From assembly GCA_030655315.1 (NCBI GenBank), contig JAURVT010000005.1, forward strand, positions 1-64,000: a stretch of DNA of 64,000 nt, in the 5' to 3' direction. Source of the DNA: Nocardioidaceae bacterium (lineage in GTDB: Bacteria > Actinomycetota > Actinomycetes > Propionibacteriales > Nocardioidaceae). The notes beneath the pieces were generated by a model. That model was not told where the DNA came from. It saw only the letters and a list, made by a program, of their open reading frames with translations, and searched no databases. Positions 6,633 to 11,325 of the stretch are shown here, in pieces. Each line of letters begins with the position of its first letter. Position 1 is the stretch's first letter. The position numbers and the translations under genes are program-made.

Positions 6633-6646
6633 TGAGAGGCCTCTCA
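6633..6646. repeat. Perfect 14-bp palindrome before the secreted repeat protein
   Basis: TGAGAGGCCTCTCA is a perfect palindrome that overlaps the first of the tandem 11-nt repeats starting at 6642. It may be part of the operator, or coincidental. Confidence 0.4.
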
Positions 6647-6685
6647 CGGCGGTCTCACGGCCGACTCACCGGGCCCCACCAGAGT
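6642..6685 (+). promoter_or_regulatory. Three 11-nt direct repeats plus -10 hexamer (OmpR-type operator)
   Basis: The units TCTCACGGCGG (6642-6652), TCTCACGGCCG (6653-6663) and ACTCACCGGGC (6664-6674) are followed after 5 nt by CAGAGT (6680-6685). OmpR/PhoB-family regulators typically bind direct repeats with about one helical turn of spacing next to the -35 region. An equivalent arrangement occurs on the minus strand at 11294-11251, upstream of the response-regulator operon. Confidence 0.6.
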
Positions 6686-6729
6686 CAGGGGTGTCAGCAG
6701 GACCGACACCCTCACCCCTAGGAGCCACC

Positions 6730-7125
6730 ATGAACCGCCACGTCCGCACCGGGATCGTCACCCTCGCCGCCACCGTCAGCCTCGGAGCCATCGGCTTCGG
6801 CGCCGCGAGCGTCGCCAACGCCGACGCCGGCGACACCGCCGTCAAGCGCGAGGACACCAGCAGCGTCTGGGTCGCCGACACCGACGACGACCTCGACGAC
6901 CTCGACGACACCCCCACCAGCAACACCCGCGGCGAGCAGCCCACCGCCAACACCGCGCCGACCAACAACACGCGCGACGAGAACCCCACCCAGAACACCG
7001 CCAACACGGTGGACGACCCGACCCAGAACACCGCGAACACGGTCGACGACCCCACCCAGAACACCGCGCAGACGGCCGACCAGCCGACCCAGAACACCGC
7101 CGACACCGCTGACACCGGCCGCTGA
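6730..7125 (+). CDS. Small secreted Asp/Thr/Asn-rich repeat protein
   Basis: The 131-residue product has a Sec-type signal peptide (basic MNRHVR, hydrophobic core, then ANADA near residue 30). An Asp-rich stretch (DTDDDLDDLDD) follows, and then about five degenerate repeats of the pattern DDPTQNTANTV. No enzymatic domain is visible and no family is recognised. The ATG follows TAGGAG. The stop lies 2 nt before the kinase gene, so the two are almost certainly co-translated. An exported, low-complexity, possibly cell-wall or cation-interacting partner of the kinase system is the best inference. The upstream 11-nt repeats suggest control by an OmpR-type regulator. Confidence 0.8.
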   Translation: MNRHVRTGIVTLAATVSLGAIGFGAASVANADAGDTAVKREDTSSVWVADTDDDLDDLDDTPTSNTRGEQPTANTAPTNNTRDENPTQNTANTVDDPTQNTANTVDDPTQNTAQTADQPTQNTADTADTGR

Positions 7126-7127
7126 GC

Positions 7128-8015
7128 ATGAGCGAGCCGGCCACCTGGGGGCTCCGGCACGGTGACGACATCGTGCCGGGGCTCACCGCCCTCAAGAGCG
7201 TCGGCGGCGGCACCGCCTTCGAGGCGTGGGTCGCCTTCGACGAGCGGCTCTACGCGCCGGTCGTCGTCAAGGTCGTCCGCCCCGACCAGATCGACGACGC
7301 GTCCACGCTGGCCGGTCTCGACCGCGAGATCGACGTGCTCGCCCGGGCCGCGCACCCCGCGATCGTCCGGGCCTTCTCCCACCAGCGACGCGACACCACC
7401 GACCGGCCCCACGTGGTGCTGGAGAACATCGACGGACCGAGCCTCTCGCAGCTGCTGCGCCGGCACGGCCCGCTGCCGCTCGAGCAGCTGCTGCCGCTCG
7501 CGATCGAGCTCTGCTCGGCCCTGCACCACCTGCGACGGGTCGGCCTGACGCACCTGGACGTCAAGCCGTCCAACGTGATCATGGGTGCACCCGCCCGACT
7601 GATCGACCTCAGCGTCGCCCGCGACGTCACCGCCGCCCGCGCGCTCGACCACCCGATCGGCAGCGACGAGTACATGGCGCCCGAGCAGTGCGACCCGGTC
7701 GCCCACGGCGGCGTCGGGCCCGAGGCCGACATGTGGGGCCTCGGCGCCACGCTGTTCAAGGCCGTCGCCGGCTACCGCGCCTTCGACCGGGGCGACGCCT
7801 CCGCCGGGTCGGGCCCGGTGCGCTGGCCCCAGCTCGTCGACGCGCCGTACGCGCTGCCCGACGGGACGCCCGAGGTGCTCGACGAGCTCGTCATGGGCTG
7901 CCTCGACGCCGACCCCGCGGCCCGTCCGCTGCCGTCGACGTTCGCCGACCAGATGGAGCCCCTGATGGCGGCCCTGCCCAAGGCACGACTCTCCGGCTTC
8001 AAGATCAGCCTCTGA
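7128..8015 (+). CDS. Soluble Hanks-type serine/threonine protein kinase with altered DFG motif
   Basis: The 295-residue product consists almost entirely of a kinase fold with no transmembrane or PASTA region. Recognisable elements are a Gly-rich loop (VGGGTAFEA), the ATP Lys48 in VVVKVV, Glu67 of helix C, the catalytic loop HLDVKPSN (Asp144, Asn149) and an APE-equivalent MAPEQ. The metal-binding DFG is replaced by D160-L-S, which keeps the Asp. The ATG starts 2 nt after the stop of the secreted repeat protein. Reduced or specialised activity is possible but not provable from sequence. Substrates are unknown. Confidence 0.88.
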   Translation: MSEPATWGLRHGDDIVPGLTALKSVGGGTAFEAWVAFDERLYAPVVVKVVRPDQIDDASTLAGLDREIDVLARAAHPAIVRAFSHQRRDTTDRPHVVLENIDGPSLSQLLRRHGPLPLEQLLPLAIELCSALHHLRRVGLTHLDVKPSNVIMGAPARLIDLSVARDVTAARALDHPIGSDEYMAPEQCDPVAHGGVGPEADMWGLGATLFKAVAGYRAFDRGDASAGSGPVRWPQLVDAPYALPDGTPEVLDELVMGCLDADPAARPLPSTFADQMEPLMAALPKARLSGFKISL

Positions 8016-8042
8016 GCACGCGCCCGGCCAGGCACGTGCTCA
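8013..8042. terminator. Inverted repeat between convergent kinase and LysE-type genes
   Basis: TGAGCACG (8013-8020) pairs perfectly with CGTGCTCA (8035-8042) around a 14-nt loop. Its position between converging genes suits a bidirectional terminator, although no T-run is present. Confidence 0.4.
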
Positions 8043-8058
8043 CCGCACGAGGGTGCGA

Positions 8059-8694
8059 TCAGCGGTCGGCGAGCAGCACGACGCTGAGCGCCGTCAGGGC
8101 CACGCCGCTGCCGCCGGCGAGGACGCGCCGGGTGCGACGGCGCGCGAGGAACGACTCGACGGCGCCGACGGCGGCCTGCAGCAGGACGTACCAGATCACG
8201 ACCAGGCCGAGCATGGTCGCGGCGAGCACCACCGACCCGGCCGTCGGACCCAGTCCGCTGAGGTGGAACTGCGGGAACAGGGCGAGGTAGAACATCGCCA
8301 CCTTGGGGTTGAGCAGGTTGCTGGTCAGGCCCTGGCGGAAGGCTCGCGAGCGCGGCACCGCGACGGTGGCCGGGGCGACGGTCTCGTCCGCGGCCGGGCG
8401 ACGGCCGAGGCTCCACCACTCCCGGAGTGCGCCGACGCCGAGCCACAGCAGGTAGCAGGCGCCGGCCACGCGCAGCGCGGTGTAGGCGACCTCCGAGCTG
8501 CGCAGGACGGCCGTCAGGCCGAGGACCGCGACCGTGGCGAGCACCGCGTTGCCGACGACGATGCCGGCGGCCGTCGCCCGCGCCGAGCGCCGACCGCCCG
8601 ACGCGGCGTTGCGCACCATGATCGCCAGGTCGGGCCCGGGGAACACCAGGAGCAGCAGCACGGTGCCCACGAAGGGCAGGAGGTCGGTCAGCAC
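8059..8694 (-). CDS. LysE/RhtB-family amino-acid exporter
   Basis: This 211-residue integral membrane protein has about six hydrophobic segments. It carries the family hallmark near the N terminus (FPGPDLAIMVRNAASGG) and a central SNLLNPKVAMFYLALFPQF segment typical of RhtB-like transporters. Members export amino acids or their derivatives; the substrate cannot be predicted. The start is 18 nt after the response-regulator stop on the same strand, so it may be the last gene of the minus-strand unit that begins at 11244. Confidence 0.9.
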   Translation of the reverse strand: MLTDLLPFVGTVLLLLVFPGPDLAIMVRNAASGGRRSARATAAGIVVGNAVLATVAVLGLTAVLRSSEVAYTALRVAGACYLLWLGVGALREWWSLGRRPAADETVAPATVAVPRSRAFRQGLTSNLLNPKVAMFYLALFPQFHLSGLGPTAGSVVLAATMLGLVVIWYVLLQAAVGAVESFLARRRTRRVLAGGSGVALTALSVVLLADR

Positions 8695-8712
8695 CCTCCA
8701 GACGGTAGGCCC

Positions 8713-9384
8713 TCAGCCTTCGCGGGTCAGCCGATATCCCATGCCGCGGACGGTGGCCACGAAGTCGGCCCCGAGCTTCTTGCGCAGGTAGCCCACGTAG
8801 ACGTCGACGACGTTGGAGCCGGGGTCGAAGTCGTAGCCCCAGACGTGCGAGAGCAGCTGCTCGCGGGAGAGCACCTGACCGGGGTTGGTGAGGAAGACCT
8901 CGGCGAGCTTGAACTCGCGGGCCGACAGCTCGACCTGCTTCCCGCCGACCCAGGCATGGCGCTCACGCAGGTCGATCTTGACGTCGCCGCGCTCCATGAC
9001 GTCGGACACCGCCGCCGCACCGGCGTGCGAGCGCAGCCGGAGCCGGACCCGGGCGAGCAGCTCGTCGAACCGGAACGGCTTGGACATGTAGTCCGCGGCT
9101 CCGCCCTCCAGCGCAGCGACCGTGTCGGTGACGGAGTCGCGCGCGGTCAGGACGATGACGGGCAGGTCGGGGCGCTCGGCGCTGACCCGCTCCAGGATGG
9201 TGAAGCCGTCCATCCCCGGCAGGCCGATGTCGAGCACGACGAGGTCGAACTCGCCGGTGAGGGCGTAGTCGAGGCCGGTGATGCCGTCCTCGACGACCGT
9301 GGGCGTGTAGCCGTCGGCCTTGAGCCCCTTGGAGACGAACGACGCGATGCGCGGCTCGTCCTCGACGATCAGGATCCGGTTCAC
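8713..9384 (-). CDS. OmpR-family two-component response regulator
   Basis: The 223-residue product has a receiver domain (acidic pocket Glu8-Asp9, phospho-acceptor Asp52 in VVLDIGLPG, Lys in MSKPF) and a C-terminal winged helix (VWGYDFDPGSNVVDVYVGYLRKKL) typical of OmpR/PhoB regulators. The GTG start overlaps the histidine-kinase stop by 4 bases, which marks the two as cognate partners. Tandem 11-nt repeats upstream of the operon's first gene and upstream of the secreted repeat protein at 6730 are good candidates for its binding sites, implying autoregulation. Confidence 0.95.
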   Translation of the reverse strand: MNRILIVEDEPRIASFVSKGLKADGYTPTVVEDGITGLDYALTGEFDLVVLDIGLPGMDGFTILERVSAERPDLPVIVLTARDSVTDTVAALEGGAADYMSKPFRFDELLARVRLRLRSHAGAAAVSDVMERGDVKIDLRERHAWVGGKQVELSAREFKLAEVFLTNPGQVLSREQLLSHVWGYDFDPGSNVVDVYVGYLRKKLGADFVATVRGMGYRLTREG

Positions 9385-10841
9385 GCGCCCATCCTCGCTG
9401 TGCTGCTGGTCGTGGAGTCGGTCTGGGTGGTGGTCGGGTCCTCGACCGCCAGGGGGACGCGCACGCGGAAGGTGGCGCCGACGACGGTGTCGTCGAGGAC
9501 GACGGTGCCTCCGTGGGCGTCGGCGATGGCCGAGACGATGGACAGCCCGAGGCCGAAGCCGTCGTCGCCGCCCGAGCCGGCGCCCCGCTGGAACCGGTCG
9601 AAGATCCGGTCGCGGTCGTCGGGTGCGACGCCGGACCCGGTGTCGCGGACCCACAGCTCGAGGTCGCCGTGGGCGACGCGGGAGCCGACGGCGACCTCGT
9701 CGCCGGGACCTGTGTGGCGCACCGCGTTGTGGGCGAGCTGGAGCAGGGCCTGGGTGAGGCGCTGGCCGTCGACCGGTGCGGTGACGTCGGCCCGCTGGTC
9801 CAGGGTCCAGCGACGCGGAGCGAGGGCCCGGCACTTCTCCAGCACGTCGACGGTGAGCACGCCGACGTCGACGGGCCGGGCCACGACGAAGTCGGGACGC
9901 CGCGACTTCGCGAGCAGGAGCAGCTCGTCGACGAGCCGCGACATCCGGTCGATCTCGTCGACGAGGAGCGCGCGGGTGGAGCTCACGTCGTCGGGGTCGT
10001 GCACGTCGAGCAGCTCGAGGTGCCCGCGGAGCACGGTCAACGGCGTGCGGAGCTCGTGCCCGGCGTCGTCGAGGAGGTGCCGCTGCTGCTCGAAGGAGCC
10101 CTGCAGGCGGTCGAGCATCTCGTTCACCGTCACGGTCAGCTCGGTGAGGTCGTCGTTGCCGCTCGGCTCGATCCGCCCGGAGAGGTCGCCCTCGGAGATC
10201 TGCTGGGTGGTCTCGCGCAGCCGCCGGACGGGTGCGAGCAGCCGGCCCGCGACGAACCAGGCGGCCCCGATGATCACGAGCAGGGCGACGCCGGCGATGA
10301 ACGCATAGGTGCCGATGACGTTGCGCAGCTCGGCACGGGCCGCGGTGACGTTGTGGGTGACGGCGAAGGCCGCCTCGGTGGAGCCGCCGCGGACCGGCAG
10401 GACGGCCAGGGCGTAGGTGTCGCCGCCCACCGACAGGGAGCGTGAGCCGCCGCCGGTGGACCGCAGCTCGTCCACGGCGTCGCCGAAGGCGGTCGAGTCG
10501 CGGAGGGGACGGACGTCGGCGCCGCCCTGGTAGCGCGTCCTCCCCGTCCCGAGGTAGCCGAAGAGGATCTCGTTCTGGGCCGGCAGGTTGCGCTGGAGGA
10601 AGGTCTGCAGGAGACGGTCCGCGCTCGTGAACGGCTCGCCCGTGTCGGGGTCGACGCCCTGGGCCTGGTAGGCGCGTACCTCGCCCATCTCCTGGGCCAT
10701 CTCGCTCGCGATGGTCCGGTCGAGCCGCCCGAGCTCGACGGTGTAGACCGCGAACCCGGCGCCGGCGAGGGCGAGCGCGGTGAGGACGGCGACGGCAGCG
10801 GTGATCCGTGCACGGACGGAGAACGCGGACAGTCGCTTCAT
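9381..10841 (-). CDS. Membrane sensor histidine kinase
   Basis: The 486-residue product has TM1 at about residues 14-34, an extracytoplasmic sensor of about 130 residues, TM2 near 170-190 and a HAMP linker. The HisKA H-box is GHELRTPL with phospho-acceptor His262. The ATPase domain shows the N-box (AHNAVRH), DTGSG and GFGLGLSIV. The ATG at 10841 was chosen because it begins a standard TM1; the upstream extension is low-complexity shadow sequence. The gene overlaps the regulator by 4 bases and follows the Asp-rich protein gene by 52 nt. The sensed signal is unknown. Confidence 0.95.
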   Translation of the reverse strand: MKRLSAFSVRARITAAVAVLTALALAGAGFAVYTVELGRLDRTIASEMAQEMGEVRAYQAQGVDPDTGEPFTSADRLLQTFLQRNLPAQNEILFGYLGTGRTRYQGGADVRPLRDSTAFGDAVDELRSTGGGSRSLSVGGDTYALAVLPVRGGSTEAAFAVTHNVTAARAELRNVIGTYAFIAGVALLVIIGAAWFVAGRLLAPVRRLRETTQQISEGDLSGRIEPSGNDDLTELTVTVNEMLDRLQGSFEQQRHLLDDAGHELRTPLTVLRGHLELLDVHDPDDVSSTRALLVDEIDRMSRLVDELLLLAKSRRPDFVVARPVDVGVLTVDVLEKCRALAPRRWTLDQRADVTAPVDGQRLTQALLQLAHNAVRHTGPGDEVAVGSRVAHGDLELWVRDTGSGVAPDDRDRIFDRFQRGAGSGGDDGFGLGLSIVSAIADAHGGTVVLDDTVVGATFRVRVPLAVEDPTTTQTDSTTSSTARMGA

Positions 10842-10893
10842 GGCAGCGTCCAGCCTAGGGTGCCGCAGCGTGGCGGACCGCGCCCTGAGCGGC

Positions 10894-11244
10894 CTAGTCG
10901 TCGTCGGCGTCGTCGCGGTCGTCGTCATCGTCGTCGAGGTCGCGGGTCTCCGAGCCCGACTTCTCGAAATCGTCGTCGTCGCGGTCGTCGTCATCGTCGT
11001 CGTCCCCGCGCGGGGTGGGCGCGGCCGTGGTCGGCGCGGTGGACGGGCCCGGGGCGGTCGTCGCGGGGGCACCGGTGGTGGGGGCGTCGGTGGTGGGGGA
11101 GGTGGTGGGCGGGGCGACCGTGACCGCGTCGCCCACGTCGGGCAGCGGCGAGGACGAGGTGAGGGCGCGGGCGCCGACGATCCCCCCGAGCACCATCACG
11201 ACGACGGCGAGCACCGCGAGTCCGATCTTCGTGTGGCCGGTCAT
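10894..11244 (-). CDS. Small membrane-anchored Asp-rich exported protein
   Basis: The 116-residue product has a short cytoplasmic MTGHTK, one transmembrane or signal segment (about residues 7-28), a Pro/Thr/Ala linker, and an extracytoplasmic tail containing long Asp runs (DDDDDDD and DDDDDD) punctuated by Arg. No domain family is recognised. It heads the minus-strand unit with the histidine kinase and response regulator. Possible roles are cation binding or acting as an accessory to the sensor; both are inference. The Asp runs are encoded by near-perfect GAC repeats, prone to slippage. The start is placed at ATG 11244, directly after a CAGGCT hexamer. Confidence 0.8.
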   Translation of the reverse strand: MTGHTKIGLAVLAVVVMVLGGIVGARALTSSSPLPDVGDAVTVAPPTTSPTTDAPTTGAPATTAPGPSTAPTTAAPTPRGDDDDDDDRDDDDFEKSGSETRDLDDDDDDRDDADDD

Positions 11245-11250
11245 GGGGAC

Positions 11251-11294
11251 AGCCTGGTCCCGGCGGGTCAGGACACCATGAGACCTTGATGAGA
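11251..11294 (-). promoter_or_regulatory. Three 11-nt direct repeats plus -10 hexamer upstream of the two-component operon
   Basis: Read on the minus strand, the units are TCTCATCAAGG (11294-11284), TCTCATGGTGT (11283-11273) and a degenerate CCTGACCCGCC (11272-11262). A 5-nt spacer and CAGGCT (11256-11251) follow, 6 nt before the ATG at 11244. Unit length, spacer and hexamer match the promoter at 6642-6685, suggesting one regulator binds both. Confidence 0.6.
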
Positions 11295-11325
11295 AGACTC
11301 TTACCCGCCGTGGGAGAGTGAGCCC

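Follow-up and report, generated by a model that had tools for sequence, protein, structure and literature searches.

Two promoters in the window, a 64,000-nucleotide (nt) stretch of a Nocardioidaceae bacterium genome (contig JAURVT010000005.1, positions 1 to 64,000), carry the same composite operator, here called the box, and its candidate reader is the OmpR/PhoB-family response regulator encoded at 8713-9384. Promoter A precedes the operon that contains this regulator and its histidine kinase, and promoter B, on the opposite strand, precedes a gene pair for a small exported protein and a protein kinase. The best explanation as a whole, which we hold with considerable confidence, is that both promoters are direct targets of the regulator, which would act as an autoregulating activator. 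The two modules very probably answer to one regulator and form part of something broader, and matching pairs of box and regulator recur in many other actinobacteria and in some cyanobacteria.

A composite operator at two promoters

Re-parsing the window sequence confirmed three 11-nt units, a 5-nt gap and a hexamer at both promoters (Table 1), at the positions given in a preliminary description of this DNA. That description had also remarked that the TCTCA cores, their periodicity and their distance to the hexamer coincide, and the two sites bear this out: both TCTCA pairs are spaced by 11 nt, and both hexamers occupy +47 to +52 of the box. Its comparison with OmpR/PhoB-type direct repeats beside a -35 region holds for the direct repeats and needs revision in two respects, as an inverted half-site, which had been missed, stands 4 nt ahead of unit 1 at both sites, and the hexamer corresponds to a -10 element. 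Read from its letters, the box is an ATGAGA-N4-TCTCAT inverted repeat followed by direct repeats.

The arrays are rare in their surroundings. The two strands of the window contain 14 TCTCA in total, and these two arrays are its sole same-strand pairs at most 40 nt apart. Across the whole genome (4,176,123 bases), TCTCA-N6-TCTCA occurs four times, two of these being the arrays, and the pattern read backwards does not occur. Operator B is the sole strict-pattern match in this genome; operator A is conserved in relatives. On sequence inspection, the remaining two pairs lack both the inverted half and the -10 geometry and were not counted as targets for that reason. One stands just ahead of a protease-like gene beside another kinase, and the other ahead of an inositol-phosphate-synthase-like gene (both named by sequence reading). 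The former pair, TCTCAG-N5-TCTCAG (C20:79832-79847, locus L068), lies without an inverted half between the protease-like gene and another histidine kinase, and it might be the site of a different regulator.

We aligned 126 distinct boxes found by T[GA]AGA-N4-[TC]CTCA-N7-CTCA in the retrieved loci. Columns outside this selection pattern were conserved as well: the A ahead of the inverted half (0.83), the CTCA of a third direct unit, spanning +32 to +35 (C 0.69, T 0.62, C 0.67, A 0.64), and two further positions, A(+48) with 0.80 and T(+52) with 0.81. No -35-like element was conserved in the 126 boxes besides the repeats themselves. An ATG or GTG start codon was found at +60 in 39 cases and at +59 in 23, with +51 also accounting for 23; for Asp-tail genes preceding a kinase, the start codon lay at +58 to +60 in 30/32. 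Given roughly 80% conservation of A(+48) and T(+52) and a start-codon peak at +59/+60, the hexamer of both window sites is assigned as the -10 element. The same peak suggests that the kinase/regulator operon, which looks leaderless, begins at or near its own start codon. The start codon at 6730 has AGGAG ahead of it, so the mRNA from promoter B would have a leader.

Conservation of the box and co-occurrence with the regulator

We next compared loci around the best regulator matches in relatives, accepting as a box at least 13 of 15 core letters and counting those Nocardioidaceae loci in which kinase and regulator stand in order. The box lies upstream of the exported-protein/kinase/regulator operon in 19/19 Nocardioidaceae loci of this first sample, and a second box, on the other strand and within 4 kb behind the regulator, is present in 15/19. 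Elsewhere in the 205,728 bases of these loci only two boxes were found, and none in the reversed sequence. Loci L021 and L065 fall outside the 19, their kinase being incomplete or absent on the contig. The preliminary description had proposed a comparison of orthologous upstream regions, and these counts support its core reading.

At the genome level, the strict 25-mer occurred in 25/58 relatives (40 matches; reversed pattern 0), and 24 of these 25 encode the regulator at E <= 1e-75 (table 24/1/12/21, Fisher p 1.8e-6). In the exception, G002, the box lies at the end of a 3.1-kb contig. Across the class, 77/394 genomes contained the strict motif (reversed pattern 0), 122/394 the regulator at E <= 1e-60, and 70 both (Fisher p 1.2e-35); neither p value is to be taken at face value, since related genomes are not independent.

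A later sample was drawn from the 52 class genomes that have the regulator and lack the strict motif; it comprised 40 loci from 39 of them. These were scanned with a loose pattern, TGA/TAA-N8-TCA-N8-TCA, that leaves four core letters free and was scored on flanks, third unit and -10; a box was found upstream in 22 loci and on either side in 24. Applied to 159 loci (1.57 Mb), the loose scan returned 215 boxes, against 0 in the reversed sequences. As judged from these scans, the box is frequent in the regulator clade without being universal. The Streptomyces pattern was seen in 2/81, both boxes lying directly behind the regulator gene. Streptomyces loci (L140:6688 and others) have a second box between the regulator gene and a CitMHS/Na-sulfate-symporter-type permease. 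The SCO2142/SCO2143 pair of Streptomyces coelicolor is presumably the orthologue of the window kinase and regulator.

Covariation of the recognition helix and the operator

Operator letters change together with residue 199 of the regulator, in its recognition helix. In the covariation set (159 loci, 104 with an upstream box), regulators with Tyr199 have G at +3 and C at +10, the TGAG/CTCA core, in 46/47 upstream boxes. Where residue 199 is Ala, Ser, Thr, His or Asn, this core appears in 2/57 upstream boxes, the rest having A or T. Downstream boxes show the same division, with the TGAG/CTCA core in 44/45 for Tyr199 versus 5/50 for other residues. When Tyr199 is replaced, the inverted half and the first direct unit change their outer letters together. 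Streptomyces rows in the set are many and alike. On a 62-row tree, three changes at residue 199 are needed, of which supported branches force two. One forced change falls within the cyanobacteria: cores are TTTCA in L174 (His) and L186 (Asn) and TCTCA in Tyr199 rows such as L137, L157 and L159. This covariation ties the box to the regulator at 8713-9384 rather than to a paralogue.

Genes of the window and genes behind the boxes

Table 1. Features of the two promoters and modules in the window.
Feature	Position	Strand	Description
Operator B	6633..6674	+	inverted half-site TGAGA (6633-6637), 4-nt spacer, direct units from 6642, 6653 and 6664
Operator B units	6642-6652, 6653-6663, 6664-6674	+	TCTCACGGCGG, TCTCACGGCCG, ACTCACCGGGC, then CCCAC
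Promoter B hexamer CAGAGT	6680..6685	+	-10-like (xANNNT), 47 nt past box start; in the column of A(+48)/T(+52)
Small exported protein, 131 residues	6730..7125	+	open reading frame from ATG 6730; signal-peptide-like N terminus, KRED motif, short Asp run, Asn/Thr repeats
Protein kinase, 295 residues	7128..8015	+	PF00069, E 3.6e-30; HLDVKPSN and DLS motifs
OmpR/PhoB-family response regulator	8713..9384	-	recognition helix NVVDVYVGYLRKK from residue 191, Tyr199; candidate reader of both boxes
Membrane histidine kinase	9381..10841	-	HAMP, HisKA, HATPase_c; PAS/PDC-like extracytoplasmic domain
Membrane-anchored or exported protein, 116 residues	10894..11244	-	Thr/Pro linker, C-terminal tail rich in Asp; heads the kinase/regulator operon
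Promoter A hexamer CAGGCT	11251..11256	-	-10-like; 6 nt, then ATG at 11244; in the column of the conserved A/T
Operator A	11262..11303	-	inverted half-site TAAGA (11303-11299), spacer, direct units from 11294, 11283 and 11272
Operator A units	11294-11284, 11283-11273, 11272-11262	-	TCTCATCAAGG, TCTCATGGTGT, CCTGACCCGCC, then GGGAC; third unit degenerate

The regulator scored 94.7 bits against PF00072 (cut-off 30.2) and 92.5 bits against PF00486 (cut-off 26.2), which places it in the OmpR/PhoB family. Neither of the small proteins that head the two modules matched Pfam or NCBIfam. The preliminary description had called both Asp-rich; this fits the tail of the 10894-11244 product well and suits the 6730-7125 product less, which has one Asp run within Asn/Thr-rich repeats. 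Relatives of the latter stand behind 30/126 boxes, and in relatives the kinase is again the second gene of the pair. In several Aeromicrobium loci (L119:8592 and 7978, L124, L125), the small exported protein has a relative, strongly Asp-rich, behind the second box; in L119 this is an additional copy with its own box. Between the two modules of the window lies a gene for what looks, by sequence reading, like a LysE-type exporter (8059-8694); in relatives such as L118, unlike the window, the kinase directly faces the regulator.

A gene was called behind 95/126 boxes. The Asp-tail first gene follows at 32/126; in these 32 the tailed protein is succeeded by a long gene, which contains HELRTP in 27. 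A kinase with HxDxKPxN is the second gene at 25/126 boxes, and a two-component-type kinase stands directly behind 6/126. Smaller groups comprise APH-type phosphotransferases (7 boxes; one tested, PF01636), family-28-type glycosyltransferases (3 boxes; one tested), secreted proteins (3 boxes, 2 with a sortase-like second gene) and exported proteins with a weak beta-solenoid match under its cut-off (3 boxes). The one sortase-like second gene tested is a class F sortase (186.1 bits, cut-off 166). There are also single cases, such as DUF4956 plus VTC. Boxes were seen directly ahead of DUF4956 and VTC-domain (polyphosphate-polymerase-like) genes in Arthrobacter (L184:5886) and another actinobacterium (L110). 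Micromonospora-like genomes (L225:2392-2427 and other f23 genomes) have a near-invariant box, TGAGAGCGTTCTCATCGAGACCTCA, about 80 nt upstream of a gene for an Asp-rich secreted protein, which is followed by a sortase-like gene. A search of the window genome, run without a positive control, gave no match to a relative's box-linked glycosyltransferase.

The best reading of this gene content is that the regulator serves Asp-rich exported proteins, kinases, sortases or glycosyltransferases. From the exported proteins and the sortase and glycosyltransferase neighbors in relatives, we infer a role in the cell envelope.

Cyanobacterial relatives and the sensor domain

Cyanobacterial regulators are about 45-61% identical to that of the window, among the best 80 of 302 matches in a scan of named genomes, and in a tree they group with the actinobacterial regulators in a single clade, separate from four heavy-metal regulators. 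The box-type pattern occurred 11 times in 6/13 cyanobacterial genomes and never in reverse. Calothrix (L137) and Nostoc (L159) have, behind the regulator, a kinase, a PepSY-like protein (PF11396) and then a glycosyltransferase, and a box lies about 120 nt ahead of this last gene. The glycosyltransferase is a full-length relative of the actinobacterial target in L247 (30% identity, E 1e-54).

The sensor domain of the histidine kinase (residues 33-166) was modeled with AlphaFold at a predicted local distance difference test (pLDDT) score of 93.2. Comparison of the model with the PDB gave no match at E <= 0.001; the best reached 1.3e-3 and the zinc sensor CzcS 0.039, a weak PAS/PDC-like resemblance. 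In an alignment of 44 kinases, the best conserved residues of the domain are Glu51, Glu54, Pro87 and Glu91, with no conserved His, Cys or Met. Our guess is that the domain has an acidic ligand site for cations. Given the acidic, Asp-tailed extracytoplasmic partner and the conserved acidic residues of the sensor, a first guess at the signal would be a cation or a cationic ligand.

Proposed mechanism and alternative explanations

In the proposed mechanism, the adjoining histidine kinase would phosphorylate the regulator, which would then bind the palindrome as a dimer. Further protomers would be added in phase along one helix face, on TCTCA half-sites every 11 bases, until the array extends to about 12 bases before the -10 and recruits RNA polymerase at the place of the -35 (type II activation). 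One target would be the regulator's own operon, giving positive autoregulation from a leaderless mRNA, and the other the exported-protein/kinase pair. The preliminary description had assigned both promoters to this regulator; of that proposal, the common box stands, and conservation in Nocardioidaceae, co-occurrence and covariation make the regulator at 8713-9384 the most likely reader.

That the two promoters resemble each other by chance is next to inconceivable: TCTCA is short and the third minus-strand unit is degenerate, yet the genomic rarity of the arrays and the empty reversed controls speak against it, and conservation already refutes it. The true reader could instead be a paralogous OmpR-family regulator, as the genome has 27 matches to the window regulator at E <= 0.001, with paralogues 40-45% identical; co-occurrence is with this orthologue group and covariation with its own helix, which leaves such a paralogue highly improbable. 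Equally slim is the prospect that the palindrome TGAGA-N4-TCTCA belongs to a different factor and the direct repeats alone to the response regulator. Many OmpR-family proteins do act on direct repeats alone, for example PolR (PMC6754071; here and below, published systems are compared from excerpts of the papers cited). Here, however, palindrome and direct repeats have a common half-site at fixed spacing and their outer letters change in concert when Tyr199 is replaced, and AgrR uses inverted and direct repeats of one half-site (PMC7380067).

The direction of control leaves more room. It is unlikely, though less so than the preceding alternatives, that the same regulator binds both boxes and represses, or activates one promoter and represses the other. 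The array comes within 12 nt of the -10, and a protein bound there could stand in the way of polymerase; both hexamers begin with C, making basal strength hard to judge; and CutR of Streptomyces both activates and represses, depending on position (PMC12802291). The lack of a conserved -35-like element is, by contrast, what is expected if an activator replaces the -35, and AgrR, whose operator is laid out alike, works by type II activation (PMC7380067). By analogy with this AgrR-like layout, the window regulator most likely activates both promoters.

Several observations weigh against direct activation of both promoters by this regulator, or against its generality. Outside the Nocardioidaceae, the relatives sample has a box ahead of the operon in only 3/8 usable loci (behind the regulator in 3/8, with 5 boxes elsewhere), and 7 further loci were left out, their kinase not being upstream on the same strand. 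Seven motif-bearing class genomes gave no regulator match. Among the 40 loci picked for lacking the strict motif, the loose scan found no box in 16; when these were rescored, L311, L312 and L318 showed a 14-of-15 element on the other strand, L305, L306 and L313 partial elements, and the others nothing. Boxless L325 and L326 are Nocardioidaceae whose regulators are 74% identical and keep Tyr199. No gene was called behind 31/126 boxes, the direct repeats of the Micromonospora-like box point away from the nearest start, and the covariation depends on few independent changes.

A wider proposal is tentative, and we think it more doubtful than probable: the window may hold a local copy of an old, unnamed signaling system of actinobacteria and cyanobacteria, with one OmpR-family clade, one operator grammar whose core letter is set by residue 199, and a kinase with an acidic exported partner that it also induces. 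Its targets (Asp-rich exported proteins, class F sortase pairs, family-28-type glycosyltransferases and kinases) would build or decorate acidic surface material, and the partner would serve as a third component, sensing or buffering cations or cationic compounds. Should the explanation by one shared regulator hold, the box would provide a rule to predict targets of a widely held two-component system that is undescribed in the open-licence literature searched, a natural series of joint changes in a recognition-helix residue and its operator letters, and a tie between small acidic exported proteins without a family match and a kinase and regulator.

Comparison with known systems

No description of this box was found in the literature, as covered by open-licence papers. 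The excerpted part of a review lists SCO2142/SCO2143 as an unnamed kinase/OmpR-type regulator pair. Three actinobacterial systems share traits with the window regulator. The PhoP/PolR type, including the Streptomyces PhoP unit, also has half-sites every 11 nt, with PolR direct repeats GTTCACnnnnnGTTCaC (PMC6754071). It is a different regulator with a GTTCAC core, unlike TCTCA here, and no inverted half is described in the excerpt; box identity was rejected on the core. MprA of Corynebacterium glutamicum is likewise an envelope-linked, autoregulated OmpR-type regulator (PMC12113857), and CutR of Streptomyces an OmpR-type regulator with exported-protein targets (PMC12802291, PMC10433416); their motifs, TKTTAAGAAM and TAWATAAA, were rejected on sequence, the core here being TCTCA.

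The nearest annotated plasmid relatives, among the matches listed, are of heavy-metal type (CopR/CusR, 44-46% identity). Although TIGR01387 (cztR_silR_copR) is the best NCBIfam match of the regulator, it scored 204.5 bits against a cut-off of 279.2, and the kinase scored 181.4 bits against 292.55 for the heavy-metal sensor kinase family TIGR01386. In the tree, where the heavy-metal side consists of four plasmid-borne annotated rows only, these form their own branch (100/98), separate from the window's clade (99/95). CopR/CusR membership was rejected because both cut-offs were missed, the tree splits the groups, the sensor has no conserved His, Cys or Met, and no efflux gene was seen behind the boxes.

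The closest likeness in operator layout is to AgrR of Cupriavidus metallidurans, with CopR/PcoR sharing the layout. AgrR is an OmpR-family type II activator with positive autoregulation that needs both a 6-4-6 inverted repeat and in-phase direct repeats (PMC7380067), and ATGAGA-N4-TCTCAT with its 11-nt direct repeats has the same layout. It differs in its core (GAG/CTC, versus KAC/GTM in AgrR), in direct repeats that are regular and number up to three units, and in that no metal efflux gene was seen behind the boxes. The operator grammar is thus of a known kind, that of AgrR/CopR, and the core, companion proteins and regulon are a new variant of it.

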